From a virus, in the IMG/VR virus record IMGVR_UViG_3300022746_000016, positions 102,548 to 166,547 of that record: a DNA stretch of 64,000 nucleotides; one strand, 5' to 3'. The notes under the pieces are model-generated. The model was given only the letters and a program-made list of their open reading frames with translations. It was not told where the DNA came from and did no database searches. Each line of letters starts with the position of its first letter. The stretch's first letter is position 1. The position numbers and the translations under genes were made by a program. Below are positions 6,692 to 61,580 of the stretch, piece by piece.

Positions 6692-7270
6692 TTATAATTC
6701 GTAACCAAACTGTTCAAAATCTTTCTTGTAGTAAAGACGAACCATATCTCTAGTCTCATCATCCCATTCAACCTTTTGTTTCGGATGGGAGTTGACTGTT
6801 TGTAACTTAACACCAAGACGACTTTCCAGAGGCTCCAAGTTTTCATACTTGAATATCTCAATCGGATAATCGCAGTCAATGAACATACTCTGAGTTCGGC
6901 TGATGCTGTCTGTAGAATTCTTAGTTCGATTAAACAGCACGTACTTTAACCATGGCTTGAAATCAAAATTCATATATGCCACGTAGTCTTGGTAGTCAGC
7001 TTTCTTCTGTTGTAAAGAATATGTATCATAGTAATCTTTGTACATAATCCTAGAGTAAGAAAAGATAGACTCGACTCTGTCGTATGGGTTTCTTGCAATA
7101 CAAAAAGAGAAGTCGGGTTTATACTTATGATACTCGCAACGATTAACCAAAGTAGATAAGAAATGGTGATTGTTCATCCACTTCTGATAGTTGATGTCTG
7201 GACTATCAATCATAGCATGGCGGACAGCAGAGCCAGCATTCTTAGGTATATGTAAAAATAGAACGTTCAT
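6692..7270 (-). CDS. Sulfotransferase-family protein, copy 1
   Basis: A 192-residue protein. HIPKNAGS at 7-14 matches the 5'-phosphosulfate loop of PAPS-dependent sulfotransferases, and RNPYDR at 60-65 the 3'-phosphate site. Such enzymes move sulfate from PAPS to a hydroxyl or amine on sugars, tyrosines or small molecules. The ATG overlaps the stop of the 2OG oxygenase upstream (ATGA), so hydroxylation followed by sulfation is a plausible pair. A paralogue at 16330-16920 shares the ends of the fold (DDExRxMVRxYxKxDFExFGYE). The length is short for cellular enzymes. The substrate is unknown. Confidence 0.82.
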   Translation of the reverse strand: MNVLFLHIPKNAGSAVRHAMIDSPDINYQKWMNNHHFLSTLVNRCEYHKYKPDFSFCIARNPYDRVESIFSYSRIMYKDYYDTYSLQQKKADYQDYVAYMNFDFKPWLKYVLFNRTKNSTDSISRTQSMFIDCDYPIEIFKYENLEPLESRLGVKLQTVNSHPKQKVEWDDETRDMVRLYYKKDFEQFGYEL

Positions 7271-7806
7271 TTCTTATGTGGTACGTCAAATACAAAGGTT
7301 ACACGAACACAGTCGCCTATGTTCTTAGTCCCATGGGGTAGTTTATTGTTGAACCATAGCAGGGTTCCAGGTTCTACCGTAACAGATTCATCTCCCACTG
7401 TGTATATGTATCTGCCTTGGATGGACAGATGATAGCGGTCTCTAGTTTGGTAGTAACTTCCAATATCAATGTGCGTTCCAACTTCTCCACCAACTGGCAG
7501 AGATAGGAAACCACATCGACTGACTTTCTTAAAGTGTCGCTTAACGAAGCCAATGACTTCTGTGTGGTGTTGAATAGCTGGAGTTGGAATACAATACTCT
7601 GTGTCTCCAACGTACTGGTCTATATGTTCAACACCACCCATCACAAGCTGCAATACACCAGCTTGAACTTCGGGGAATCCATATGAGAGCATGGACTTAA
7701 CTCCATCTACTCTTTTCTGAACTCCCCAGTCCTCTGGGTATTTTTCTAACTGTGCCAAAATCTTTGACACATTTAAACCAGTCTTAATGATTCTAATGTT
7801 CTTCAT
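7267..7806 (-). CDS. 2OG-Fe(II) oxygenase, Asp/Asn beta-hydroxylase-like
   Basis: A 179-residue cupin-fold oxygenase. The iron site is H112-I-D114 and H158, with R168 for 2-oxoglutarate. The segment RYHLSIQGRYIYTVGDESVTVEPGTLLWFNNKLPHGTKN has the spacing of the aspartyl/asparaginyl beta-hydroxylase family, split here by the short loop between strands. It would hydroxylate a protein side chain or small molecule using Fe(II), O2 and 2-oxoglutarate. Its stop overlaps the start of sulfotransferase copy 1 (ATGA). Its own ribosome site is weak (GGATTACT), and its 5' end faces the divergent GIY-YIG gene at 7842. Confidence 0.8.
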   Translation of the reverse strand: MKNIRIIKTGLNVSKILAQLEKYPEDWGVQKRVDGVKSMLSYGFPEVQAGVLQLVMGGVEHIDQYVGDTEYCIPTPAIQHHTEVIGFVKRHFKKVSRCGFLSLPVGGEVGTHIDIGSYYQTRDRYHLSIQGRYIYTVGDESVTVEPGTLLWFNNKLPHGTKNIGDCVRVTFVFDVPHKK

Positions 7807-7841: not shown

Positions 7842-8426
7842 ATGAAACCATTTACCTACCTTATTAAGTGTATCCCAACTAACCAAGTTTACTATGGTGT
7901 TCGGTACTCATCAAACTGCCACCCAGACCAACTCTGGAACTCATACTTCACATCATCTAAAAGAGTTCATACTCTAATCGAAAAATATGGAGTAGAAAAC
8001 TTCCAAACTCAGATAAGAAGGACATTCTTAACTGCAGAAGAAGCGGTTAGATGGGAGACTAAAGTCTTATCTAAACTTAATGCTGCTAAGTCAGAGGTCT
8101 GGCTAAACTGTCAAAATGGAGACTACAAGTTCAAAAACAAAGGTGGATATAAACTACCAGAGTCTAAGAAAACTAATTTTAGAAAACCTAAAAGCGAGTC
8201 CCATAAACAGTCTATGAAAGATCGTTACAAAGTAAAACATAAACATTATAACGACGGTAAAAAGTCTTATTATCTTCCAGAAGATTCCCCTCTAATAACA
8301 GAGTTAAACCTAAAAGAAGGACAAGTTATAACAAAATGTCCACATTGCAGTAAAGAAGGTAAACTAAACGCAATGCTTAGATGGCACTTCAATAACTGCA
8401 AGACATCACCCGAAAAAACCCTCTAA
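7842..8426 (+). CDS. GIY-YIG-type endonuclease, probable free-standing homing enzyme (downstream of 43)
   Basis: A 194-residue plus-strand protein. The N-terminus FTYLIKCIPTNQVYYGVRYSS resembles a divergent GIY-YIG nuclease (YLI...YYG...R), with a later E in EEAVRWETKVL as the metal ligand. The C-terminus has a CPHC...H...C zinc-finger-like unit (TKCPHCSKEGKLNAMLRWHFNNC). It is a clear paralogue of the protein at 10939-11544; together they flank DNA polymerase. Its 3' end overlaps the end of gene 43 by 21 bases on the opposite strand. Codon use is AT-rich compared with neighbours. Homing next to a replication gene is inferred from T4 seg and mob precedents. Confidence 0.82.
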   Translation: MKPFTYLIKCIPTNQVYYGVRYSSNCHPDQLWNSYFTSSKRVHTLIEKYGVENFQTQIRRTFLTAEEAVRWETKVLSKLNAAKSEVWLNCQNGDYKFKNKGGYKLPESKKTNFRKPKSESHKQSMKDRYKVKHKHYNDGKKSYYLPEDSPLITELNLKEGQVITKCPHCSKEGKLNAMLRWHFNNCKTSPEKTL

Positions 8427-10938: not shown

Positions 10939-11544
10939 ATGAAACCTACTATCCCATTTACCTATCTTATCCACTTCAAAGCGACAGACCAATATTATTA
11001 TGGTTCTCGATATAGAAAAGGATGCAACCCATCTGACTTATGGTCAGTATATTATACATCATCTAAAGTTATAAAACAACTAATCTTAGAACACGGTAAA
11101 GATGCGTTCACGGTATCTGTGAGAAAGATATTTAATACAGCAGAAGAGGCTAGAAAATGGGAATCTAGATTCTTAAATAAAGTCAAAGCAGCACAGTCAG
11201 ATAAATGGCTAAACAGGCATAACGGAGATGAGAAATTCTATGGGAGAGGGCACCATGGAAATTTGGGTAAAAAGTTATCACAATCCCATCGAGAAAATAT
11301 TAGCAAAGGGCAACTAGGAATAAAACGTGGTCCATTTTCTGAAGAACATCTAAGAAAAATATCAGAATATCGTCAGGGTAAGAAACATTCTCCTGAAGTA
11401 AAACAGAAAATGTCAGATTCTAGAAAAGGTATATCCAAGACGCTAAACTTAGTTACATGCCCGCATTGTGGTAAATCTGGCAAAGGTGGTAATATGACTA
11501 GATATCATTTCAACAGGTGTGCTCAGCTAACTGCTTTACCATAA
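10939..11544 (+). CDS. GIY-YIG-type endonuclease, probable free-standing homing enzyme (upstream of 43)
   Basis: A 201-residue paralogue of the protein at 7842. It shares the N-terminal FTYLIHFKATDQYYYGSRYRKG, the AEEARKWESRFLNKVKAAQS helix and a C-terminal CPHC...H...C unit. In the middle it carries NUMOD-like basic repeats (SQSHRENISKGQLG, SEEHLRKISEYRQGKKHS, PEVKQKMSDSRKG), which in homing enzymes wrap DNA. It is divergent from gene 43 and convergent with dexA, overlapping the dexA end by 22 bases. A TATAAATA element lies directly upstream. The intermediate region gives good support for the homing class. Confidence 0.87.
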   Translation: MKPTIPFTYLIHFKATDQYYYGSRYRKGCNPSDLWSVYYTSSKVIKQLILEHGKDAFTVSVRKIFNTAEEARKWESRFLNKVKAAQSDKWLNRHNGDEKFYGRGHHGNLGKKLSQSHRENISKGQLGIKRGPFSEEHLRKISEYRQGKKHSPEVKQKMSDSRKGISKTLNLVTCPHCGKSGKGGNMTRYHFNRCAQLTALP

Positions 11545-14961: not shown

Positions 14962-14982
14962 TACAATCCTGAGGGGATTGTA
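14962..14982 (-). terminator. Hairpin after the 15005-17839 group
   Basis: An eight-base perfect stem (14962-14969 with 14975-14982) with a five-base loop lies 22 bases below the stop at 15005. The downstream T-tract is poor, so termination may be partial. A TATAAATC element overlaps the stop-proximal side (14985-14995). Confidence 0.45.
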
Positions 14983-15004: not shown

Positions 15005-16333
15005 TTAGAAGGCTTCTAGGACGTGTATAGGGAACACGTCATTCAGGGGCTGGAACCCCCACTCTGGGAGGTCGTAGGAACCTTTAGAGAGGCTTTTAGA
15101 GGGTCTTAGACCGATCTTAGGGTACAGGTCTTCGGTAAGCCACCAAGCATGCGAGATGACGATTTTAGAGCCTTCTTTTAGGTTTGCTCGGACATTCGTA
15201 AAGAACTTCAGGCGATCTTCTGAGGTGCAGTGGTTCAGAACGGAAAAGAGCAGGATGTAGTCGAACTTACCTTCGAACTGAAAATCTTTCACGACATATA
15301 GAGTTGGATTCTTTTCAGAACCTTCGGTTAGCTCTTTTGCAACTTTGATGAAGCTGTCGTTAAAATCAACGCCTGTGTAGTTCGATTCGTTCAAGTAAGA
15401 GATCAGATGTTCACCTGCTCTTAATGGACCACAACCAACATCAACCAGTTTGTGTTCTGGTTTTAATCCATTATCGATAAGAAGTTGAAGTTGGAACTGT
15501 CCTCGTTTATCCCATCGTTCTGCCTTACCACCAATCTGTTGTTTGTATGTTTCAGAATCAATGACTACTTTGCTATAGTCTTTCGGTAAACAGATAAAGG
15601 TATCATCAACGTAGTCATTGTTTGGTCCAGCAAAGTGAACAAGAACAGATCTTGGGTTTAGCTTATCACCAACAATAAGTTCACCACCGACTCTGTCTCG
15701 ATATAAGTCAGCCATCTTATCCATAAATCCTAAAGAAGAATCATACTTAACGATATACTCTTTTGGCCAGAATACTATGTCATGAGTCTTCTGAAGGTTT
15801 TGCCAGATGAATCTCTGCTCACCAAAGAATGGTGGGAACTTCTCTTTATACAAACCACTTTTAGAACCTAGATGATAATGCATCATCCAGTAGCTTGGAC
15901 GTTCTAAGAATTTCTGTAGCACATGGAGGTTGGATCCATCTGCTTTGAACTTTGATACACCAGAGTTAATAGGTGTGCCGATCTGATTCGTCCACCATCT
16001 GAATGCATATAACTGTTCGCCAGTATTGACTGGGTACTTGATAAGTTTCTCTGGATCTCCGATGAACACTTGATCAATATCCATAATGATAACTTCATCA
16101 TCAGAAGAAGCACCAATAAAGTTTGGATCGAAGAAACGAAGTTTGTTCCACTGTCTTTTTAAAAGAGGATCCTCACCAATAGGTATGACTACAATATTTT
16201 CGTCTAATCCAGAAGCATCCTCAGTCATACAAATGAATCGAATATCTGGAATGTGTTTGATGCTATTGTATAAACGATTCACATTCTTTGATGGGTACTT
16301 GGTACCATACTTGAGAGTACAAATGTGTATCAT
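15005..16333 (-). CDS. Two-domain glycosyltransferase-methyltransferase fusion
   Basis: A 442-residue protein. Residues 1-235 look like a nucleotide-sugar glycosyltransferase: LKYGTKYPSKNVNRLY at the start and MDID at 84-87 as the DxD metal site. Residues 265-442 are a class I SAM methyltransferase with DVGCGPLRAG at 298-307, TGVDF in the acidic loop and ILLFSVLNHC after strand 4. The stand-alone protein at 60084-60830 has the same N-terminal family marks. The gene is coupled by ATGA to sulfotransferase copy 2. The likely task is to place and methylate a sugar on a phage or host glycan. The acceptor is unknown. Confidence 0.85.
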   Translation of the reverse strand: MIHICTLKYGTKYPSKNVNRLYNSIKHIPDIRFICMTEDASGLDENIVVIPIGEDPLLKRQWNKLRFFDPNFIGASSDDEVIIMDIDQVFIGDPEKLIKYPVNTGEQLYAFRWWTNQIGTPINSGVSKFKADGSNLHVLQKFLERPSYWMMHYHLGSKSGLYKEKFPPFFGEQRFIWQNLQKTHDIVFWPKEYIVKYDSSLGFMDKMADLYRDRVGGELIVGDKLNPRSVLVHFAGPNNDYVDDTFICLPKDYSKVVIDSETYKQQIGGKAERWDKRGQFQLQLLIDNGLKPEHKLVDVGCGPLRAGEHLISYLNESNYTGVDFNDSFIKVAKELTEGSEKNPTLYVVKDFQFEGKFDYILLFSVLNHCTSEDRLKFFTNVRANLKEGSKIVISHAWWLTEDLYPKIGLRPSKSLSKGSYDLPEWGFQPLNDVFPIHVLEAF

Positions 16334-16920
16334 TGTTCGTATCCAAACATTTCAAAATCTTGTTTAAAATAAGTTCTTACCATCTCTCGGCTTTCATCAT
16401 CATACATTTCTTCAGTTGGTTTTCTATCTGGATTGACACGTTCTTGTGGAACTACAATACCAGTCTCACGTTGGAATGTTTCCATATCTTCCATCTTGAA
16501 AATTCTAATATCAGATTTAGAATCCAAGTAACTGCTCTGAAGAAGAAAGTGGTGTGACACCGTAAGATAGTTGGCTAACTCGAATGTGTTAAAGTGAAAG
16601 AACTTTAACCACTCTTTGAAGTCTAAACTTAGAAATTTCTGATAAAACTCAATAGACTTTCTTCGCATAAAATGCGGTGGCTTGATATGTTTCTGTAAAT
16701 GGAAATATGTACTGACTGCTCTATCGTATGGGTTGCGCACGAACGTGAATGAGTAGTCTGGTGTGAAGTTATGGAACCTACATCTCGCCTCTAACTGTGC
16801 ATGAGTTAGATGAGATACCATCCACTCAATAGGAAAATTGTGATCAGGAGAATCTACAAGTGCCGTACGAATGGATGTCCCAGCTGTTTTTGGGATATGC
16901 AGGAACAGAACATTTTTCAT
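16330..16920 (-). CDS. Sulfotransferase-family protein, copy 2
   Basis: A 196-residue protein with PKTAGT at 10-15 (5'-phosphosulfate loop) and RNPYDR at 62-67 (3'-phosphate site). It is a paralogue of the protein at 6692-7270, with similar length, the same order of blocks and a nearly identical C-terminal helix, but only moderate identity elsewhere. It lies between a radical SAM gene (junction TGATATG) and the glycosyltransferase-methyltransferase gene (ATGA). I infer sulfation of a sugar or peptide made by its partners. PAPS must come from the host. Confidence 0.83.
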   Translation of the reverse strand: MKNVLFLHIPKTAGTSIRTALVDSPDHNFPIEWMVSHLTHAQLEARCRFHNFTPDYSFTFVRNPYDRAVSTYFHLQKHIKPPHFMRRKSIEFYQKFLSLDFKEWLKFFHFNTFELANYLTVSHHFLLQSSYLDSKSDIRIFKMEDMETFQRETGIVVPQERVNPDRKPTEEMYDDESREMVRTYFKQDFEMFGYEQ

Positions 16921-16921
16921 A

Positions 16922-17839
16922 TCAAAGATGTTTAATTGGGATAACTTTCTTTTTAATAGAAATGTCTTGATTCATTGTAATGTACTGTTTTGTCTCAGGA
17001 CAAGATGAACATACATCTTCAGCAGTGTAAACAGTCTGCAAGAATTCTTCTACAGCAGAGTTATCATTAATATCTACACCATCATATTTTAAATATGGAG
17101 CCCACTCTGGATCATCTAGCTGTTCTTTAATAGCTAGCATATCTGAAAGGTACGCTGTATGAGAACACTTATATAATTTACCCTTATACAACTGAGGGCA
17201 ATTAGTCTCGCAGATCTTGAATGCTTTGTCTTTGTCAGAGTTAAATGGATAGACTTTATCACCTTCATACTTGATGATATGCCCCCAGATCTCTTTCTTA
17301 CGTTGCCATTCATTGGAGATCTCAATCCATCCAAAGTCTTGATCTTCATACAAAGTGTTTCTTCGCATGAACTTAATATTTTTGGCTATAGCTTTCTTAT
17401 AAAAATCTAAAACCTTCTCAGCAAGATTGTCTCTACTCTTATCACCTGGACCAACGTGGACTGATATTTTTAAAGTCATTCCACGTTCAACTAAATCAAG
17501 CAACCAATCGTCATGCTTATTAACATAGAAACCATTGGTCAACAACTTAACCTTCTTACCCTTTGAGATAAGATACTCACATACAGCTTTAGTGCCTTTG
17601 GGGTTGAGCAATGGCTCTCCACCAAGAATGTGGAATGTTCTTATCTCAGTTTTTTCTAGAAGGATTTCTAAGTCTTTGATAAGCTGTTCAATGTCTACAG
17701 ATTCGGAGACATCAACAAACTCTGAGTGATGAGAGCAACCAGAGCAAGTTAGGTTACATCCCATATGTGTATGGACATTTAGACGTTCTAAATTTCCACC
17801 ATACTTTTCTAGTATGGATTTTGCAAGATCGCCTTGCAT
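16922..17839 (-). CDS. Radical SAM enzyme with C-terminal Cys-rich (SPASM/Twitch-like) region
   Basis: A 305-residue radical SAM protein. CNLTCSGC gives the CxxxCxxC iron-sulfur site at 28, 32 and 35, and GGEPLL at 73-78 is the SAM-binding GGE motif. Further cysteines near the C-terminus (KICETNCPQLY, KLYKCSH, VCSSCPE) could bind an auxiliary cluster, as in enzymes that modify peptides or sugars. It is the first gene of the three-gene group with sulfotransferase copy 2 and the glycosyltransferase-methyltransferase. The reaction is unknown; peptide maturation, epimerisation and sugar dehydrogenation are all possible. Confidence 0.87.
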   Translation of the reverse strand: MQGDLAKSILEKYGGNLERLNVHTHMGCNLTCSGCSHHSEFVDVSESVDIEQLIKDLEILLEKTEIRTFHILGGEPLLNPKGTKAVCEYLISKGKKVKLLTNGFYVNKHDDWLLDLVERGMTLKISVHVGPGDKSRDNLAEKVLDFYKKAIAKNIKFMRRNTLYEDQDFGWIEISNEWQRKKEIWGHIIKYEGDKVYPFNSDKDKAFKICETNCPQLYKGKLYKCSHTAYLSDMLAIKEQLDDPEWAPYLKYDGVDINDNSAVEEFLQTVYTAEDVCSSCPETKQYITMNQDISIKKKVIPIKHL

Positions 17840-19956: not shown

Positions 19957-20016
19957 TTGGTATGGGTCACGAGATTGCCGTCTCTACCCATTCTAGATCT
20001 ACTTAGGAGAACCAGC

Positions 20017-20580
20017 ATGAGTATTTATTCAATCTATACCGCTACCAACAAAATAACAAAGAAAGTTTATGTTGGTTTCGCAACCAACTTCCATCAAAGA
20101 GTACTTCGTCATAAAGCACTCTATCCAAATTCCCCAAAGAAACTATACACAGCTATACGAAAATATGGCTGGGGTGCTTTTCTATGGGAAGAGATTTATG
20201 TTTCTACCGATAAAGAGCACTGTCTTAATGCAATGGAGCAGTTCTTTATAGAGGAATTTGATTCCATCAATTCTGGCTATAATACCACGAAAGGTGGAGC
20301 AGGAGTCCTTGGTGTTAATACCGAAACTGTTTGGATAAATGACGGTAAAAATCACAAAAGAGTTAAATTCAACTCACCGATACCAGAAGGATGGGTTCTT
20401 GGTAGAACCAAAATTTCTCGTAAAGTTAAAATGTCTAATGAATCAAAACAAACTATTAGTCATAAAAACAAAGAGCATGGCGTTTTTGCTAAACTGAATT
20501 GTCAAAAATCTCCATGCCCCCATTGCGGTATCTTTATGAATCTAGGTAATTTAACTAGACACATAAAGGCGAAGCACTAA
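20017..20580 (+). CDS. GIY-YIG endonuclease, probable free-standing homing enzyme
   Basis: A 187-residue plus-strand protein. SIYTATNKITKKVYVGFATN is the nuclease core (SIY...YVG), R in RVLRHK and E in MEQFFIEEF are usual active residues, and the chain ends with a zinc-finger-like CPHC...H...H unit (SPCPHCGIFMNLGNLTRHIKAKH). It is distant from the two copies around gene 43 but has the same C-terminal idea. AGGAGA stands six bases before the ATG; a longer start is rejected. The stop directly abuts the regA end on the opposite strand. Confidence 0.9.
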   Translation: MSIYSIYTATNKITKKVYVGFATNFHQRVLRHKALYPNSPKKLYTAIRKYGWGAFLWEEIYVSTDKEHCLNAMEQFFIEEFDSINSGYNTTKGGAGVLGVNTETVWINDGKNHKRVKFNSPIPEGWVLGRTKISRKVKMSNESKQTISHKNKEHGVFAKLNCQKSPCPHCGIFMNLGNLTRHIKAKH

Positions 20581-55350: not shown

Positions 55351-57348
55351 TTAATAAGTGCCGCCGTCAATGTTGAAACCATCTAGAGTAGATGTTCCAG
55401 CACCAGCACCAGTGATATTACCATAAGCAGTAATAGTACCAGTAGCACTCAATGTTGTAAACGCACCAGAAGAAGCAGTAGAAGCTCCGATTGGAGTGTT
55501 ATTGACAGATCCACCGCTAACAGTAGCGCCAGTGATAGTCTTGTTTGTGAGAGTCTCATCACCAGCAAGTGTAGCTAATGTACCAGTTGTTGGCAATGTA
55601 ACGCTGGTTGCGCCAGTCATTGTCAATGTACTTGCGTAAGCACCAGCAGTAGTAAGGTTACCGCCAAGAGTAATAGTCTTAGTGCCGTTGTTAACACCAG
55701 TACCACCATAAGTTGGAGATACTAAATCACCTTGCCAAGTACCAGTACCGATTGTACCAAGAGTAGTGATAGATGTTTGACCAACATAAGTTGATGCGAT
55801 ATCGATACTATCAGCGTTAACAGTGATTCGGTTAGAAGTTCCAACAACAGCCAACACACCAGATGTTAGTGTTAGACCGTCGCCAGCAACAGTAGACTTT
55901 AACTGTAGATTATCTGCAGAGATCTCTAAACCACCAGTAGAAGCAACGTTTACTTCTAGAGTATAACCGTTCTTAGAAAGACCGTTACCTGCAATCAGAG
56001 TACCAGAGCTAGAGAATAGAGTGAATGCTAAGTCTGTGGTACCAAGAACAATTGGGTCATTAGTAGTTAGAACGAAACCAGTGTCGCTATTTGCAGTACC
56101 TTGTTCAACGAAACAGAACATACCAGAAGTGACTTCACCACCTGGATTGTTATCTGCATCAGCAGAACGAACCCACGCACCAGAAGCGACTACGTAGATA
56201 CCATTCTGAGATGCTGTGTTTTGGTCTTTAACAAGAACACGGTCACCAACAGAAAGAGCTACACCATCAATAGTTTGTGTATTAGAAAGAGTGATGTTAG
56301 CAGTTGTAGCAACTTTAACAGAACCTTTGATATCTAAACCAGAACGAGCAGCGTCAACGTAGTACTTTGTAGCAGCATCAGAGTCTGCTACAGGTTCTGC
56401 TAAGTTAGTGATACGAGAAGAAGAAACATCAACAGTACCTGTGCCATTAGGGTCTAGAACAATGTTACCATTAGTATCAGTAGAAGAAATAGCGTTACCA
56501 GTAACACGAATATTTCCAACATCTACTTGAGTAAGACCTGCAATAGTAGTTGAAGAACCACCAAGAGCAATAGTTGTAGTACCGAATGTTACAGAACTAT
56601 TAACAAGAGAAGAATTTCCGATATTAGTTAGCGTATTAGAAGCACCACTAATAGTCTTGTTTGTTAAAGTCTGAGATCCAGTTAGCGTAGCTACAGTTGA
56701 ATCGATATCGAATGTTACTGTATTTGCTGTGACGCTAGATGTAATACCAGTACCACCAACGAAACCTAGTGTCTCACTTAGAAGAGAGATTCCATCAGAT
56801 CCAGTATCACCAGTAATGTTTAGAGTTGTGGCAATATTTGCTGTAGAGACAGCAGTGATTAGACCCTTACCGTTTACTGTAATAATAGGAATCGCAGTAG
56901 CAGAACCAAATTGACCAGTGTTACTGTTAACAGTCGCTAATGTGATTGCTTGGCTGTAGTTAGCAGAGCCATCGAAAGAACCAGAAGCAGTAGCGTCACC
57001 AGTAAAGGCAATAGTACGGGCAGTTGCTAGCTTAGTTGCAGTATCAGCATTACCTGTCAATGATGCAGTAATTGTACCAGCAGTAAAGTTACCTGAAGCA
57101 TCACGCTTAACTAAAGTAGAAGCTGTGTTTAGGTTGGTCGCAGCAGTAACCATATCGGTGAAGAACTTACCACCGATGACTACGTGACTTGCAGCATTAC
57201 CTGCAGTTTCTGAACCCATACCGATGTATAATCTGTCACCACCGTTGGATCCGTTGTCTGCTAAAGCAGAATAGGCTAATTCACCAGCTCCAAGGGTACT
57301 AGGGTTCCCAGATACTGATGAGCGTTTAATTCTAATAATTGATGCCAT
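55351..57348 (-). CDS. Tail fibre protein
   Basis: A 665-residue fibre. IIRIKRSSVSGNPSTLGAGELAYSALADNG is the attachment unit. The shaft is a chain of short repeats such as ATLTGSQTLTNKTISGASNTL and AGDETLTNKTITGATVSGG. A middle globular block (AATKYYVDAARSGLDIKGSVKVATTANIT, DRVLVKDQNTASQNGIYVVASGAW) is known from many phage fibres. The end STLDGFNIDGGTY is short and has no S74 chaperone. GGAGAAA precedes the ATG. Host contact or a connecting role is inferred. Confidence 0.87.
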   Translation of the reverse strand: MASIIRIKRSSVSGNPSTLGAGELAYSALADNGSNGGDRLYIGMGSETAGNAASHVVIGGKFFTDMVTAATNLNTASTLVKRDASGNFTAGTITASLTGNADTATKLATARTIAFTGDATASGSFDGSANYSQAITLATVNSNTGQFGSATAIPIITVNGKGLITAVSTANIATTLNITGDTGSDGISLLSETLGFVGGTGITSSVTANTVTFDIDSTVATLTGSQTLTNKTISGASNTLTNIGNSSLVNSSVTFGTTTIALGGSSTTIAGLTQVDVGNIRVTGNAISSTDTNGNIVLDPNGTGTVDVSSSRITNLAEPVADSDAATKYYVDAARSGLDIKGSVKVATTANITLSNTQTIDGVALSVGDRVLVKDQNTASQNGIYVVASGAWVRSADADNNPGGEVTSGMFCFVEQGTANSDTGFVLTTNDPIVLGTTDLAFTLFSSSGTLIAGNGLSKNGYTLEVNVASTGGLEISADNLQLKSTVAGDGLTLTSGVLAVVGTSNRITVNADSIDIASTYVGQTSITTLGTIGTGTWQGDLVSPTYGGTGVNNGTKTITLGGNLTTAGAYASTLTMTGATSVTLPTTGTLATLAGDETLTNKTITGATVSGGSVNNTPIGASTASSGAFTTLSATGTITAYGNITGAGAGTSTLDGFNIDGGTY

Positions 57349-57362
57349 CTTTTATTTCTCCA

Positions 57363-57608
57363 TTAAAATTCTCCACCTTCCATGTTCTGAGCATCGAGGG
57401 TGGTTGTGGATGTCCACTTGTTTGTTGTTGTTTTGTATACCAAAATAGACCCATTAACCTTAATTGTGGCATCAACGTCTGCGATATCAGACATTGATTC
57501 AACAACAGCAGGGTTAGCCACATTTGATGAAGAAAGTGTAAGAACACCCTCAGAGACTGCTACCTGAAGTGCTTCATCGGGTTGTACAATAGCGATTGTA
57601 TCTGACAT
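57363..57608 (-). CDS. Small fibre-associated protein
   Basis: An 81-residue protein, MSDTIAIVQPDEALQVAVSEG, with a second part IADVDATIKVNGSILVYKTTTNKWTSTTTL that resembles fibre N-terminal units. It ends 14 bases above the 665-residue gene. No clear ribosome site is seen before the ATG. It belongs by place and composition to the fibre group. It may be a connector, which is a guess. Confidence 0.7.
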   Translation of the reverse strand: MSDTIAIVQPDEALQVAVSEGVLTLSSSNVANPAVVESMSDIADVDATIKVNGSILVYKTTTNKWTSTTTLDAQNMEGGEF

Positions 57609-57614
57609 TATGTT

Positions 57615-57950
57615 TTAAATCTGTGTAATTTGCTGAGAGACTGTCACGATTCCTTCTACGACTCTAGTTTTAAAACCAGAAGGAGAAGTGATTTCTACGT
57701 CATATAACCATCGTCCAGCTGGAATGGTAGACGATTGAGTTGAGTCAAGCTGTAGGCGTACTTTGCCATTTACAGCATCGTAGATAGAAGCTGTGAAATT
57801 ATAAGCAGTTGAGGATGTGTATGACTTTCTCATCTGAGAAGCCACTGTATATCCTGTTAAATTTAGAGCCTGTCCGTTAGTTGCAGCCACAGTGATGATA
57901 TTACTGTAGTTTGCTCCAGCGTCCACGAAAAGGTTACTGATTGTCGCCAT
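57615..57950 (-). CDS. Small beta-rich structural protein
   Basis: A 111-residue protein. YSNIITVAATNGQALNLTGYTVASQMRKSYTSSTAYNFTASIYDAVNGKVRLQLDSTQSSTIPAGRWLYDVEITSPSG forms an immunoglobulin-like set of strands, like the N-terminal domain of some baseplate upper proteins. AGGA precedes the ATG and an exact TATAAATA is 31 bases upstream. It probably is the first gene of a late fibre unit. Confidence 0.78.
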   Translation of the reverse strand: MATISNLFVDAGANYSNIITVAATNGQALNLTGYTVASQMRKSYTSSTAYNFTASIYDAVNGKVRLQLDSTQSSTIPAGRWLYDVEITSPSGFKTRVVEGIVTVSQQITQI

Positions 57951-57980
57951 GTCTTAATCCTAAAACGATTCTTATCTTCT

Positions 57981-57988
57981 TATTTATA
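57981..57988 (-). promoter_or_regulatory. Exact T4-type late promoter element TATAAATA
   Basis: On the minus strand, between the hairpin at 58007-58022 and the gene starting at 57950. It is the only exact copy on the main coding strand found in a gap; shorter CTAAATA or GATAAATA forms occur elsewhere. Confidence 0.7.
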
Positions 57989-58006
57989 ATCTTGGAGAAT
58001 GCAAAA

Positions 58007-58022
58007 AGCGCCCGAAGGCGCT
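58007..58022 (-). terminator. Intrinsic terminator after 2OG oxygenase gene
   Basis: A six-base GC-rich stem (58007-58012 with 58017-58022) with UUCG loop and T5 on the minus strand, directly below the stop at 58025. It ends the AT-rich enzyme block. Confidence 0.85.
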
Positions 58023-58024
58023 GA

Positions 58025-58675
58025 TTATTTGTAGTAGTTTTCCAGTTTACCCCTGAATTCATCGTCTACTGTATTACCAGTTCTCATATAATTGTGCAGT
58101 CTAATATCAGGAGACTCTAAAAGGAGGTTAATATATCTTCTTGGATACTTAGAAGGTTTTCTTGGTGTAACTGCGTGCCAAGAAGAAGTTAAGTTTGGGA
58201 ATATGATAAAACTATTCGCTTCGTATTTAATTACTGTAGTTTTTTTAGTAGTAGGGTTCATGAGAAGCAGATCACCACCAGAATTTTCTTCCTCATCTTG
58301 GTGTTTGAAGTACCATAATCCTACTAAAAATTTATCACCAGTATCTAAATGCCATCCTCTAATTTTATACGGTAACTCTGAAGCCTTGTTCTCAGAGTAT
58401 AAAATTCTTGGTTTAAGTTTAAACTGTTTATCTGCTAATTTAGGATATTCTACAATAAAGTCATTTGCGAACACTTCATAACATTGCATCATAATAGATG
58501 AGATTTTAGAAAAAAGTTCTAAGTTTTCTAAGGGAATGTTAGATCGATTGCCAGTTGCAACATTATATTCTTTATGTGTGATATTATCCCATTCCTTTAT
58601 AACATCTTCATATAAATCTTGATCTATGCTACCTTTTATATGTGGGAATGGATCGTTAGAGTAAGATAAGTTCAT
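58025..58675 (-). CDS. 2OG-Fe(II) oxygenase in fibre cluster
   Basis: A 216-residue oxygenase. WHLDTGD gives H109 and D111, SWHAVTPR gives H167, and R180 in PRRYINLL would bind 2-oxoglutarate. The strands KFLVGLWYFKHQ and NSGGDLLLMNP are in the right places for the prolyl-hydroxylase-like group. It overlaps the gene above by 20 bases and is the last of a four-enzyme block. I infer hydroxylation of a fibre or sugar. Codon use is AT-rich compared with the fibre genes. Confidence 0.85.
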   Translation of the reverse strand: MNLSYSNDPFPHIKGSIDQDLYEDVIKEWDNITHKEYNVATGNRSNIPLENLELFSKISSIMMQCYEVFANDFIVEYPKLADKQFKLKPRILYSENKASELPYKIRGWHLDTGDKFLVGLWYFKHQDEEENSGGDLLLMNPTTKKTTVIKYEANSFIIFPNLTSSWHAVTPRKPSKYPRRYINLLLESPDIRLHNYMRTGNTVDDEFRGKLENYYK

Positions 58676-59582
58676 CTAGGGGTAACCTTTGTTCAAAATG
58701 AGAAATTGCTCGTGTTCTAATTCTATCCACGGCATCACTTGCATATATGTTTATACAATAGTGTCTAACGTAATAAGTTAACCACTGTTCTAAATCTACT
58801 GGAATAGTAGTATTTATAGCCTGTTCTGGAGAATCACAAACAACTGCCATTTCCATATATTCAGTCTCGCCGAATACTGCAACTGGTTTATTACATATTA
58901 GTGCTTCAATTCCAGACATGCTTGAAGCTGTCCACATCATATCACAATGTTTAATTAGGTGGTAGAGTGGTGTAGTATAATCAATAGAGGCATACAAACT
59001 ATGTTCATTTAATTCTGAAAACCATCTAACTGGATTGTGATGATCAATGCATCCAGAGTGCCATTTAAATATAACATGTCTTTTAGATTCTCTTGACCAT
59101 GATATAATTTCTTTAGCTAGTTTACTAAAATCTTTTCTATACCAAACAGTAGAACCTGTATTCTGCATAGAAACTAAAATAAAGTTTTCTGGAAGATATA
59201 CTTGCGTAAGTGGCGGTTGTGTATATCTTGTGAATTTTCCAGAATTATATAAGTCTAATAGTTTTTTCTGTATTCCTATTTCTACCTTACACTTTTTATA
59301 AATGTCATTTGGTTGAAAGTTTAAAAATCCATAACCTTGTGGCAGAAGTTTACCTAACCATGGAGCTGGAGAACCATAGTTATAATACAAAAATGGTTGA
59401 TCTATATTTTCTTTTTTATCACCATTTTTGTATCGAATAATACCATCTACATCTAATCCTTCAATAGCAGATTCTATTACGCTATTAAACTGTTCAATAT
59501 AAGATACATTTCTATGTTTGAATATTTGATCGAGACGTTCTGCTTTATAGGTTTGTCCGTCGACTTTATCAAACTGTATCAT
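58656..59582 (-). CDS. KpsS/KpsC-like capsule-type glycosyltransferase
   Basis: A 308-residue protein. FKWHSGC (KxH-type), then MMWTASSMSGIEALICNKPVAVFGETEY, is the signature of Kdo-type capsule transferases (SS-SG-EAL--KPV--FG). The N-terminal half lacks known motifs. It would add an acidic sugar to a lipid or glycan. It is coupled by overlap to the oxygenase genes on both sides (ATGA above). Alternatively it may use a different sugar. The block has low GC by eye. Confidence 0.7.
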   Translation of the reverse strand: MIQFDKVDGQTYKAERLDQIFKHRNVSYIEQFNSVIESAIEGLDVDGIIRYKNGDKKENIDQPFLYYNYGSPAPWLGKLLPQGYGFLNFQPNDIYKKCKVEIGIQKKLLDLYNSGKFTRYTQPPLTQVYLPENFILVSMQNTGSTVWYRKDFSKLAKEIISWSRESKRHVIFKWHSGCIDHHNPVRWFSELNEHSLYASIDYTTPLYHLIKHCDMMWTASSMSGIEALICNKPVAVFGETEYMEMAVVCDSPEQAINTTIPVDLEQWLTYYVRHYCINIYASDAVDRIRTRAISHFEQRLPLDELILL

Positions 59583-60091
59583 CTATTAAAACCGTATGCA
59601 AATCTTGGTGAAGGTGAATGTACGCAATGCCAAAGTAAATTATTTTTATCTACTTTGAATTCTCTCTGAGTCCATCCAATATAATCCATATCGTCAACAA
59701 TAGTACCTGTAAATGGATCTTTATATCTGAAAATCCCAGGTTTATTGGTAAAAATAATGTAGACTCTAGTTCCAACATTATCTGAGTTTGTGTGCCAATC
59801 TATGCAACTATTTTGAGTATAATACATTGTGTTAGTGCAAGATTTAGCTCCAAGAATATCGATAACTTCTTTTACGAAAGGTTGATCTTTTCTTTGCATA
59901 TCAAATGCACCAAAATTCATAGATGCTTTAGTATTATCTTGCGTCTTTGGAATAGCAGTTATAAAATTATCGAATGCTAATTTACTGACATTACCAATAG
60001 GCTTACCTTTAGCAAATTCTAATCCAAAGTTTTTAATTTCTTCTGTCAGAATTTTAATGATATTTTCTGATGGAATAGATTTCTTAATCAT
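59579..60091 (-). CDS. Probable 2OG oxygenase-like protein with HxN site
   Basis: A 170-residue protein. SCIDWHTNSDNVGTRVYIIF has H100 followed by N102 where HxD is normal; D104 may replace it. LLWHCVHSPSPRFAYGF has H155 or H158 and R163 in the places of the distal His and the 2-oxoglutarate Arg. The middle FRYKDPFTGTIVDDMDYIGW is conserved-looking. Either it is an active variant or a degenerate binding protein. It overlaps the glycosyltransferase above by eight bases and the KpsS-like gene below by ATGA. Confidence 0.6.
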   Translation of the reverse strand: MIKKSIPSENIIKILTEEIKNFGLEFAKGKPIGNVSKLAFDNFITAIPKTQDNTKASMNFGAFDMQRKDQPFVKEVIDILGAKSCTNTMYYTQNSCIDWHTNSDNVGTRVYIIFTNKPGIFRYKDPFTGTIVDDMDYIGWTQREFKVDKNNLLWHCVHSPSPRFAYGFNR

Positions 60092-60830
60092 TATTTCTCC
60101 AATTATCTGATATCCACTTCACAGCTTGTTTATCTATGTATTCTAATTCTAAAACTTGATGCTGACTTGGAAACCCATGGAAAGAACAAATCATACCGTT
60201 TTCTGGTGGTTTATATCCTCTATAAATGTTTTGGTTATATACATTTATATCATCTCGTTTATGTCCGAACCTAAAAGACCAAATCCACTCATTTGGTAAA
60301 ATTTTAATATCTTTTTGGTTTCTACTTAAGTGGTATAATGCAATAAGAGGTTGTTCATTACCTCTAATAAGTTTATACCCACTAGCTACTTTTTTCTTAA
60401 AGAAATCAAAAAAGTCGTACCAATATTTTGGATTAAATACCATTACTGCGCCATGATATGTTGTAATATCTCTCTTTAAAAAATCAAGAGACATACACCA
60501 CTTTTCTTCAGGGAATATAAACAGAGGATCTAAAGATGAGACAATAACTACATCTAAGTCTAAGTATAATGTTTTTCGTTCAGGTAGTGTCCCCTTAACA
60601 AACATAGACTCTTTATACCATTGATTCTCATGAGAACCAACATCATGCAACCAATCTATCGGACATGGCTTACAAATCACTTCTTGTCTAATATTAGAAG
60701 GGTCATCTGTTATACAGTAAAAGTCAAACTCCATGGTAAGATTCCTCTTGACCATGGAGTATAGATTGTTTACATAATCACTTGTGTAAAGGGTTCCCCA
60801 CTTTACACATACCACGTTAACTTTTGACAT
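60084..60830 (-). CDS. Glycosyltransferase
   Basis: A 248-residue nucleotide-sugar transferase. VNVVCVKWGTLYTSDYVNNLYSMVKR at the start and LYLDLDVVIVSSLDPLF with DLD as the metal site are the family marks; GAVMVFNPKYW and GNEQPLIALYHL follow. It shares this plan with the first domain of the fusion at 15005-16333. It is the first of four enzyme genes in the fibre cluster, and its ATG overlaps the stop of the gene above (TAATG). I infer sugar transfer to a virion or host-surface target. Confidence 0.87.
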   Translation of the reverse strand: MSKVNVVCVKWGTLYTSDYVNNLYSMVKRNLTMEFDFYCITDDPSNIRQEVICKPCPIDWLHDVGSHENQWYKESMFVKGTLPERKTLYLDLDVVIVSSLDPLFIFPEEKWCMSLDFLKRDITTYHGAVMVFNPKYWYDFFDFFKKKVASGYKLIRGNEQPLIALYHLSRNQKDIKILPNEWIWSFRFGHKRDDINVYNQNIYRGYKPPENGMICSFHGFPSQHQVLELEYIDKQAVKWISDNWRNND

Positions 60831-61237
60831 TACTTAGCGTTAAGCATATTCTCAATTTGTTGTAACTCATCTTGTGTAACAACACCATCAGAAAGAATTT
60901 CTTTAATCTTAGGGTCATTTGGAAATAATGAAGCTAAATGTGTAACAAGATCTTGATATTTCTTTGTTTCAGCTTGAGTTATAGCCTGTTGAATTTGTTT
61001 CTGTTGTTCGATATATTCAATAACTTCTTTTGTTTCCATTTTAATTAGACCCAACTTATTTGGAATCATTGTGTCTGTAGATGGATCATAAAATAAATCA
61101 TGCCAATCTGTATCATCTGGAAACTGATCTACTGATTTTTCAATAGCTGTAGTTCCAGTGTGATTCATAAAAGATGGTATTGGTTCATTAGACCAAGCAT
61201 TAACGCTGTTATCTGAATCGTTAATCAAAAAATACAT
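60830..61237 (-). CDS. Small fibre-cluster protein
   Basis: A 135-residue protein, MYFLINDSDNSVNAWSNEPI, followed by a helical second half with heptad pattern (EVIEYIEQQKQIQQAITQAETKKYQDLVTHLASLF) and an acidic tail. The N-terminal part resembles small fibre-assembly proteins. AAGGAG lies nine bases before the ATG at 61237 and overlaps a GATAAATA element. A longer start is rejected. It may chaperone fibre folding, by context only. Confidence 0.7.
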   Translation of the reverse strand: MYFLINDSDNSVNAWSNEPIPSFMNHTGTTAIEKSVDQFPDDTDWHDLFYDPSTDTMIPNKLGLIKMETKEVIEYIEQQKQIQQAITQAETKKYQDLVTHLASLFPNDPKIKEILSDGVVTQDELQQIENMLNAK

Positions 61238-61250
61238 TTTATTTATCTCC

Positions 61251-61580
61251 TTAAGCTGAACCGATTGTTCTATAGTAAACACGAACTTGAATAGTACCAG
61301 CGTCAACCGTACTATCACCAGTAGTATCTACGTTGGCAGAACGATACCAACCAAATCCACCCAGTACCATAGTTGATGGACTTAAACCGAAGTTAAGAGT
61401 AGGACCAATCCAACTTGTTGGCACAGCATATGTAACTTCAGAAGCACTATAGTTTACTGTGCCTCTTATGTTTTGGCCAAGATATCCAGTAGCTTGAGAT
61501 CCACCAAGTAACGTTGGTCTTGTTGATTGTACTGTACCATCACCAAAAGTGATGTTACCGTTTCCTAATGTAACTGCCAT
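61251..61580 (-). CDS. Small fibre protein
   Basis: A 109-residue protein, MAVTLGNGNITFGDGTVQST, a start of a kind common at the ends or bases of aquatic phage fibres, followed by beta strands (GYLGQNIRGTVNYSASEVTYAVP) and VDAGTIQVRVYYRTIGSA. It lies six bases after the S74 fibre gene's stop side and in the same direction. It likely attaches to a fibre or baseplate; no exact role is visible. Confidence 0.75.
   Translation of the reverse strand: MAVTLGNGNITFGDGTVQSTRPTLLGGSQATGYLGQNIRGTVNYSASEVTYAVPTSWIGPTLNFGLSPSTMVLGGFGWYRSANVDTTGDSTVDAGTIQVRVYYRTIGSA

Follow-up and report, generated by a model that had tools for sequence, protein, structure and literature searches.

A radical SAM enzyme, a sulfotransferase, and a glycosyltransferase-methyltransferase fusion as a probable glycan-tailoring module of a marine T4-like phage

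Introduction

Three adjacent genes of a T4-like virus encode a radical SAM protein, a sulfotransferase, and a fusion of a glycosyltransferase with a methyltransferase (GT-MT), which raises the question of whether they serve one pathway and what reaction the radical SAM protein contributes to it. The stretch of DNA analyzed here, hereafter the window, is 64,000 nt long and forms part of a 166,547-base virus record (G000). We conclude that the three genes probably serve the synthesis and modification of an unusual sugar.

Results

Genomic Context of the Gene Trio

The three ORFs are real and intact and lie consecutively on the minus strand: the radical SAM gene (17839-16922) comes first, then the sulfotransferase gene (16920-16330), and last the GT-MT gene (16333-15005). 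Their tight joining, noted in a preliminary description of this DNA, was confirmed as a 1-nt gap between the first two genes and a 4-nt overlap between the last two. The same description named loss of catalytic residues in alignments as a sign against its proposal; the catalytic motifs are intact in all three proteins. Other genes in the window are spaced as tightly as the trio.

The term "island", used for the trio in the preliminary description, does not fit its 5' side, where a phrog_527 gene (93 aa) precedes the radical SAM gene by 2 nt. Six consecutive minus-strand ORFs, the trio among them, extend from 18898 to 15005 with intergenic distances of -4 to 9 nt. The hairpin said to bound the trio at its other end is present at approximately 14962-14982 (no strand assigned), 22 nt beyond the stop of the fusion gene, but the terminator scan reports it on the plus strand only. 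On the gene strand the hairpin is followed by GGGTTATTGC rather than by a T run, and an intrinsic terminator was rejected on this ground. A foreign low-GC island was rejected as well, since the G+C content of the trio lies within 1.1 SD of that of the window ORFs longer than 140 aa. The location of the trio among replication genes is only a hint of early expression, and the T4 late-promoter motif (five sites vs. 2.9 expected, with as many in 24 of 100 shuffles) gives too few sites to be of use.

When the first 25 kb were compared at the nucleotide level with 50,697 phage records, 12 of these showed short matches, located in core genes. A separate IMG/VR contig of 4,801 bases is contained unchanged within the window, so the GT-MT fusion does not stem from a mistake in a single assembly.

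Glycosyltransferase-Methyltransferase Fusion and Sulfotransferase

The preliminary identification of the three enzymes is supported by profiles, motifs, and fold. The 442-aa fusion protein begins with a GT8-like (GT-A) domain (approximately aa 1-245; 15599-16333, minus strand), which has no Pfam match at E 0.001, including the GT8 family PF01501. Its assignment comes from a match to phrog_1962 (2.1e-9) and from the GT-A/GT8-type fold of its predicted model, for which LgtC leads at 7.2e-8. LARGE1, GlyE, and glycogenin reach Z scores of 15.3-15.5, with GT6-type enzymes tying within about 1 Z, in a ranking that covers the families on the Foldseek list, which VIA-align re-ranks. The DxD residues D85 and D87 are invariant in 20 GT sequences. 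The complete C-terminal motif of GT8 enzymes is HxxGxxKPW, of which the phage domain has HFAG and lacks KPW; given this absence and that of a GT8 profile match, the domain is named GT8-like. A solved-structure search with the GT alignment gave nothing credible. A second phrog_1962 glycosyltransferase, approximately 25% identical, is encoded at 60084-60830 (minus strand) in another glycan island.

The C-terminal part of the fusion (15005-15598, minus strand) contains a class I SAM-dependent methyltransferase, recognized by a Pfam Methyltransf_12 match at aa 297-389 (48.3 bits vs. a cut-off of 30) and by the glycine-rich motif I VDVGCGPLRAG. The predicted model of this half is largely below pLDDT 50 and hence unreliable, and was left unused. 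The methyltransferase half had no match at E 0.01 in the 50,697 phage records or at E 1 among 2,942 collected ORFs, and a short-pattern scan of IMG/VR found it in this virus only, among the matches listed.

The sulfotransferase (196 aa; 16330-16920, minus strand) matches Sulfotransfer_2 in Pfam with 44.9 bits (cut-off 22) and keeps both PAPS motifs, HIPKTAG and RNPYDRAVS (general form RNPYDRxxS); a sequence search of solved structures gave nothing credible. A second sulfotransferase is encoded at 6692-7270 (minus strand) by a gene overlapping that of an Asp/Asn beta-hydroxylase-like (2OG) protein (7267-7806, minus strand). The two sulfotransferases are paralogs, as originally proposed: they share 41-42% identity, group at 96/91, and are mutually nearest among the sampled relatives, in a tree that has many long end branches and leaves out sequences without a called BLAST-matching ORF (e.g., L274). 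The tree shows paralogy, not two substrates, and two sulfated products are possible.

The Trio and Its Parts in Other Genomes

Short-pattern scans of IMG/VR and of genomes found the trio in this virus only, among the matches listed. The loci of its parts were compared by BLASTP (E 1e-3) within the fetched flanks, with this virus's own contigs set aside. Neither the radical SAM family nor the sulfotransferase was found at the loci carrying the GT family (0/79), and the sulfotransferase was likewise absent from the loci fetched for the radical SAM protein (0/82). A cluster of other radical SAM proteins stands beside the GT in 73 of the 79 loci. Independent occurrence of the three genes, which the preliminary description had regarded as evidence against their unity, is therefore what the examined loci display. 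Since the parts occur separately, the trio is not an obligate three-enzyme unit but one combination of parts that move on their own.

These observations agree with the view that the three genes are independent morons, each acting in a different process, so that their adjacency is meaningless. The confinement of the trio to this virus among the matches listed, the finding of each family on its own at the examined loci, and four loci (L019, L021, L028, and L036) with the radical SAM gene immediately flanked on both sides by T4-type genes (PD-(D/E)XK-like and gp59-like) all speak for it. However, the 1-nt gap and the 4-nt overlap suggest co-translation, though equally tight genes occur elsewhere in the window; another phage, L177, has a phrog_1962 GT adjoining this radical SAM family; and an annotated run of phage Mosig holds a MoaA-like radical SAM protein, a carbamoyltransferase, a methyltransferase, and a GT of this family. 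We consider independent morons unlikely.

The window radical SAM protein falls into a 15-row clade supported at 97/96, within which its placement is weak (80/14) and its branch long (1.6). Thirteen of the 14 other rows, namely L177 and 12 more (including the near-copies L007 and L039), have a carbamoyltransferase in the fetched flank. Among the four loci with the radical SAM gene between T4-type genes, three have a carbamoyltransferase further off. The T4-like contig L177 carries a run of six genes, encoding a carbamoyltransferase, a SPASM/radical SAM protein, a phrog_1962 GT, a radical SAM protein, an epimerase, and a DegT aminotransferase. Relatives of four of these are present in G000: the carbamoyltransferase (46%), the epimerase (51%), the radical SAM protein (31%), and the GT, whose match (31% over 114 aa) is to the 60084 copy and not to the fusion GT (18% identity only). 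They are scattered rather than in one run, and the carbamoyltransferase and epimerase, approximately 51 and 32 kb from the trio, may serve something else. A DegT aminotransferase is found beside some relatives and was absent from this record (0/1).

Near cellular homologs, Glycos_transf_2 was found in 25 of 114 neighboring ORFs vs. 3 of 109 ORFs further away; two sulfotransferase families other than that of the window, Sulfotransfer_1 (6/114 vs. 3/109) and Sulfotransfer_3 (5/114 vs. 3/109), are hardly enriched. Many of these loci belong to related Planctomycetes and so are not independent cases. The sugar-enzyme neighbors of relatives, together with the structure of the radical SAM protein, bear out the earlier suggestion of a role in unusual sugars.

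Reaction of the Radical SAM Protein

The radical SAM protein (305 aa; 16922-17839, minus strand) is of the twitch type and matches the Pfam family Radical_SAM with 53.6 bits, above the gathering cut-off. It contains CX3CX2C (C28, C32, and C35) and GGEP; these cysteines and G73-E75, the GGE SAM-binding motif, are invariant in an alignment of 43 sequences, as are C210, C225, C277, and C280, and no other cysteine of the alignment is. We infer that the latter four ligate one auxiliary cluster. As described in a part of PMC9012708, two-electron oxidation by BtrN is associated with an auxiliary cluster of four cysteines, and MoaA with an open three-cysteine one.

The predicted model (pLDDT 86.5, pTM 0.85) is best matched by SpeY, an enzyme of the spectinomycin pathway (Z 21.6, 2.6 A, 239 of 305 residues aligned, approximately 20% identity), with BtrN second among proteins by Z (13.9). 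SpeY also leads in Foldseek (3.7e-11; next protein EpeE, 1.6e-6) and in the profile search (E 2e-18; next 3.6e-12). The preliminary description proposed a structural comparison with SPASM enzymes; structural comparison ranked SpeY, a twitch enzyme, first. PF13186 has no match in the protein, and the four extra invariant cysteines of the 43 sequences form a single-cluster twitch pattern, too few for the two auxiliary clusters of the SPASM type. The best matches are sugar or cyclitol dehydrogenases, and oxidation of a sugar or cyclitol hydroxyl within a glycan-tailoring module is the best reading, which we hold to be probable by a modest measure. Because no aminocyclitol or aminosugar pathway genes are nearby (no DegT in the record), the claim is that the phage enzyme works like SpeY and BtrN, not that it is an aminocyclitol dehydrogenase.

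The same glycan module could instead contain a sugar or cyclitol epimerase of the NeoN/AviX12 type, in which the radical is quenched by a cysteine hydrogen and not oxidized. The radical SAM epimerase EpeE is among the Foldseek matches (1.6e-6, Z 12.1), and the fold alone does not fix the fate of the radical. Yet the top two proteins by Z, SpeY and BtrN, are both dehydrogenases, and in the 43 sequences all seven invariant cysteines are accounted for by the two clusters; we regard an epimerase as distinctly unlikely.

The preliminary description also mentioned peptides, and the radical SAM protein might act on a short peptide (RiPP) that receives sugar, methyl, and sulfate groups from the other enzymes. 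SuiB (a thioether-forming maturase), SkfB, and anSME are indeed lower structural matches (Z 10.7-12.6), and there are weak profile matches to AlbA, PapB, and YydG. The former are far below SpeY, however, and the latter far below their cut-offs; the adjoining 93-aa ORF, the one short ORF considered as a precursor peptide, is a phrog_527 member instead, and relatives adjoin sugar enzymes. With no invariant cysteines for a second auxiliary cluster, a RiPP pathway was rejected as very improbable.

Least credible of all is a viperin-like antiviral enzyme making ddhNTPs against competing phages, for which there are weak matches (NF038283, 40 bits; pVip, 2.3e-11) and viperin-type structures at Z 11.3-12.7, but SpeY is better by approximately 9 Z units, the four additional invariant cysteines point to an auxiliary cluster, which viperins are not known to have, and a prokaryotic viperin was rejected at 40 bits against the curated NF038283 cut-off of 180.

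Discussion

Proposed Glycan-Tailoring Module

We favor, with somewhat more confidence than doubt, the view that this marine T4-like phage carries a module for glycan tailoring with a SpeY/BtrN-like radical SAM enzyme. SAM would be cleaved at the CX3CX2C cluster, and the resulting 5'-deoxyadenosyl radical would take a hydrogen from the carbinol carbon of a sugar or cyclitol; judging from fold and cysteines, the four-cysteine auxiliary cluster would then accept the second electron to give a ketone. As no DegT aminotransferase is present in the record, this ketone would need another fate. On the evidence of families and motifs, the GT8-like domain would transfer an activated sugar to an acceptor, the fused methyltransferase would cap it, and the sulfotransferase would add sulfate from PAPS. 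The carbamoyltransferase and the NDP-sugar epimerase/dehydratase encoded elsewhere in the genome may supply precursors for, or further modify, a glycan of this kind. A host surface glycan altered during infection would be the most likely target, as others have proposed for pelagiphage sugar genes, with a glycan on the virion as the main alternative.

A more far-reaching version is offered tentatively, as possible but doubtful: a pathway encoded by marine T4-like phages and following the chemical logic of aminocyclitol antibiotics, in which the keto or amino sugar produced by a SpeY-type dehydrogenase is carbamoylated, methylated, sulfated, and attached by a GT8-like enzyme. Infected cells or virions would thereby bear a glycan unlike those of the host; in the window the pathway genes would be scattered and two of them fused.

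To our knowledge, the recurrent radical SAM and sugar genes of marine T4-like phages mostly have no assigned reaction. One T4-like environmental genome has 12 radical SAM genes, according to a part of PMC5332604. Linking one phage branch to SpeY, a dehydrogenase of known structure, and to a partnering carbamoyltransferase provides a concrete, testable reaction; if true, it would point to chemically new glycans in marine phage infection, which could affect which phages attach to a cell.

Comparison With Known Systems

SpeY (PDB 7wzv/7wzx/7x0b), described here in part from PDB titles, is the best match in fold and in sequence, the latter spanning the first two of the four further cysteines; it differs in its low identity, and the phage protein lies outside any aminocyclitol antibiotic cluster. 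The 2-deoxy-scyllo-inosamine dehydrogenase BtrN of butirosin synthesis (PDB 4m7t) shares the twitch architecture and four cysteines for a single auxiliary cluster, although its Z score is much lower, and it is shorter and has different neighbors. Like the GT8 enzymes LgtC, glycogenin, GlyE, and LARGE1, the phage glycosyltransferase has a GT-A fold, DxD, and HxxG; unlike them, it lacks a Pfam GT8 match and KPW and is fused to a methyltransferase.

Among phages, Synechococcus phage S-SCSM2R (PQ898602) has a radical SAM relative (24%) among glycosyltransferases, in a cluster also annotated with 3-amino-5-hydroxybenzoic acid synthase and inosamine amidinotransferase, whereas the annotation of the stretch viewed includes neither a sulfotransferase nor a GT-MT fusion. 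Pelagibacter phage Mosig EXVC030M (MT647606) has the same kinds of enzymes adjoining, in the annotated order aminotransferase, MoaA-like radical SAM protein, carbamoyltransferase, methyltransferase, GT8-like protein, and phrog_1962-type GT, the last being the one GT relative that named phage records yielded (29.7%). In Mosig, however, methyltransferase and GT are encoded separately; Pfam does not recognize the annotated methyltransferase, and the GT8 match falls slightly short of its cut-off. The radical SAM protein of Mosig is 19% identical to that of the window, and its sulfotransferase lies elsewhere. The LPS-type sugar clusters of cyanomyophages and pelagimyophages likewise place glycosyltransferases, carbamoyltransferases, or radical SAM cassettes in marine T4-like phages (parts of PMC3037559 and PMC7029224), although the trio is not described in these parts and neither main text contains the word "sulfotransferase". 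The enzyme types of the trio have precedents in marine T4-like phages, but their arrangement is uncommon.

Virus and layout of the trio

The virus record, of which bases 102,548-166,547 form the window, is 166,547 bases long. The major capsid protein shares 60-62% identity with its counterparts in the 15 best phage records among the matches listed, all cyanomyophages or Pelagibacter phage HTVC008M, which marks the virus as a T4-like marine myovirus. The trio at 15,005-17,839 (minus strand) consists of three intact genes, whose products are a 305-aa radical SAM protein, a 196-aa sulfotransferase, and a 442-aa glycosyltransferase (GT)-methyltransferase fusion. The Pfam matches exceeding their cut-offs are Radical_SAM, Sulfotransfer_2, and one to a class I methyltransferase. 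IMG/VR pattern scans, one per trio protein, recovered 100% identical copies in the same two contigs and none beyond them; one of the two contigs has the fusion truncated at residue 418.

The preliminary description had treated the trio as a tightly joined island bounded at one end by a hairpin. The tight spacing was confirmed, but the upstream genes are spaced as tightly, so that the trio lacks a clear-cut 5' boundary. The hairpin exists as described, but on the strand of the genes it is not a terminator. When independent occurrence was checked in the collected loci, members were found apart, and thus the three genes do not form an obligate unit.

Three plus-strand ORFs in this otherwise minus-strand region (7842-8426, 10939-11544, and 19957-20580) resemble GIY-YIG-type homing endonucleases by eye, and the latter two begin 13 and 8 nt, respectively, after a TATAAATA site. 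Outside the window, at 56141-58532 of the whole record, lies a pair resembling, by eye, NAD-salvage genes (nicotinamide phosphoribosyltransferase and adenylyltransferase).

Radical SAM protein

Homologs of the radical SAM protein were collected by one IMG/VR profile scan, from which the best 80 of at least 237 confirmed loci were taken. The ORF was clear by BLAST in 80 of the 83 loci examined, and 79 of these 80 carry CX3CX2C; the one that lacks it is truncated by the end of its contig. Seven cysteines are invariant in the non-redundant alignment of 43 sequences, namely the three of the radical SAM cluster and C210, C225, C277, and C280.

AlphaFold2 gave a good model (pLDDT 86.5, pTM 0.85), whose top match among solved structures is SpeY (Foldseek 3.7e-11, Z 21.6), titled "a Twitch Radical SAM Dehydrogenase", followed by BtrN (Z 13.9). 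SpeY was again first in a profile search of PDB sequences, in a match that extends through C210 and C225. According to PMC9012708, the auxiliary cluster of BtrN has four cysteine ligands, whereas that of MoaA has three and an open site, and BtrN removes two electrons from an aminocyclitol alcohol, oxidizing it; the phage protein has four further invariant cysteines. Judged by these structural matches and by the four-cysteine chemistry of BtrN, the phage protein looks like a sugar or cyclitol alcohol dehydrogenase.

Carbamoyltransferase and other neighbors

In a 73-row tree, the radical SAM protein falls within a 15-row clade (support 97/96), although its own branch is long and its position inside the clade weak (80/14). 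A carbamoyltransferase gene was found in the fetched flank of 12 of the 14 other clade rows (two of the 12 being near-copies), with locus L177 as the thirteenth; L019, a contig of 4.8 kb, is a clade row without one in its fetched flank. Among all 80 radical SAM loci, 32 have a carbamoyltransferase in the fetched flank. The 109 ORFs adjacent to the gene in 42 non-redundant loci include Pfam matches to Carbam_trans_N (9), Carbam_trans_C (8), DegT, 2OG-FeII_Oxy_3, and Radical_SAM (5 each), and epimerase (3), as well as T4-type genes, among them PhoH (5) and gp59 (4). In 19 of 81 loci the vicinity of the radical SAM gene includes a cluster resembling amidinotransferases by eye, and in Synechococcus phage S-SCSM2R the radical SAM relative is found amid genes with the annotations 3-amino-5-hydroxybenzoic acid synthase and inosamine amidinotransferase.

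L177, a T4-like phage contig, contains a six-gene sugar run (L177:2709-8802) in the order carbamoyltransferase, SPASM/radical SAM protein (SPASM over the cut-off, Radical_SAM under), phrog_1962 GT, radical SAM protein, epimerase, and DegT aminotransferase. It is filed as a Rhodospirillaceae MAG, likely a binning error, and has PhoH and a PD-(D/E)XK-like gene, like the T4-like phages here. The present virus holds relatives of four of the six run genes: a carbamoyltransferase (record 65,526-66,998; 46% identity), an epimerase (record 84,366-85,328; 51%), the radical SAM protein (31%), and a GT, matched by the copy at window 60,084 (31% over 114 aa); the GT of the fusion is 18% identical to that of L177. 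The DegT gene was undetected in the record (0/1) by a search that was positive in all 14 control genomes. The record has another radical SAM gene, different from that of the trio, outside the window at 60333-61329 (about 60.3-61.1 kb); its cysteine-bearing N-terminal piece is in another frame, and therefore this gene may be split or frameshifted.

Near cellular radical SAM homologs, many of them from Planctomycetes, Glycos_transf_2 was found in 25 of 114 scanned neighbors, compared with 3 of 109 ORFs located at a distance of more than 3.5 kb. The 114 were those that came first among 152 selected same-strand ORFs, and the 109 lay on either strand. Of the other sulfotransferase families, Sulfotransfer_1 (6/114 versus 3/109) and Sulfotransfer_3 (5/114 versus 3/109) were hardly enriched.

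Fusion protein

The N-terminal half of the fusion matches the glycosyltransferase family phrog_1962 and has no Pfam match. In the structure model the GT half is good, but the methyltransferase half is not. LgtC, LARGE1, GlyE, and glycogenin head the Foldseek and VIA-align matches of the GT half, and GT6-type enzymes are tied with them to within about 1 Z. Across 20 sequences, D85 and D87 are conserved without exception.

An IMG/VR scan with a three-sequence GT alignment gave 212 confirmed loci, of which 80 were kept, two being the present virus. The GT domain was matched by 124 called ORFs in 79 collected loci, and none of the 124 also matched the methyltransferase (BLASTP E 1e-3). Of the 79 loci, which probably derive from few phage lineages, 73 share a BLAST cluster, and 70 contain a small protein whose spermine-synthase-type match is marginal and falls short of the Pfam cut-off. 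The cluster is represented by a single 776-aa ORF (L116:90-2420) in which a radical SAM domain is fused to an entire carbamoyltransferase.

A second, weaker GT copy is located at window 60,084-60,830. It belongs to another glycan island, which comprises five genes at 58025-61318 and has a clearly low G+C content of 0.30-0.32, more than 2 SD below the window-ORF mean. Besides this phrog_1962-family GT, the island encodes a 2OG-oxygenase, a Capsule_synth protein, and two further proteins, of which one resembles a hydroxylase by eye; also by eye, it adjoins tail-fibre-like genes.

Sulfotransferase and its paralog

The sulfotransferase retains both HIPKTAG and RNPYDRxxS. It groups with its paralog at 6692-7270 (minus strand) with support 96/91 in a 21-row tree of 18 distinct sequences, in which other forks are mostly weak and many branches long. 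Setting aside the contig with this paralog, the next relatives in IMG/VR and phages have at most 28% full-length identity. Of 299 genomes sampled from a single phylum, 9 had a match at 1e-5 (28-33% full-length identity). The grouping supports a duplication or joint acquisition of the two genes; the two products suggested in the preliminary description are possible, but the grouping does not support them.

Comparison with known systems

The common thread is glycan chemistry, comprising sugar activation, oxidation, transfer, methylation, carbamoylation, and sulfation, and one assembly of such parts is the best reading of the trio. Most likely, it would act on a host surface glycan during infection, by analogy with an argument originally made for pelagimyophages (PMC7029224). 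Among the papers listed, judged mostly from titles and abstract openings, none was found to describe this trio arrangement. Large sugar clusters and carbamoyltransferases are already published for cyanomyophages (PMC3037559), and glycosyltransferases and radical SAM cassettes for pelagimyophages (PMC7029224). A single T4-like genome from the environment has been described with many radical SAM genes (PMC5332604), and marine phages with sulfotransferases whose role is unclear (PMC10580990). The trio thus belongs to a known kind of system, and the sharper point is the SpeY-type radical SAM branch together with its carbamoyltransferase partner.
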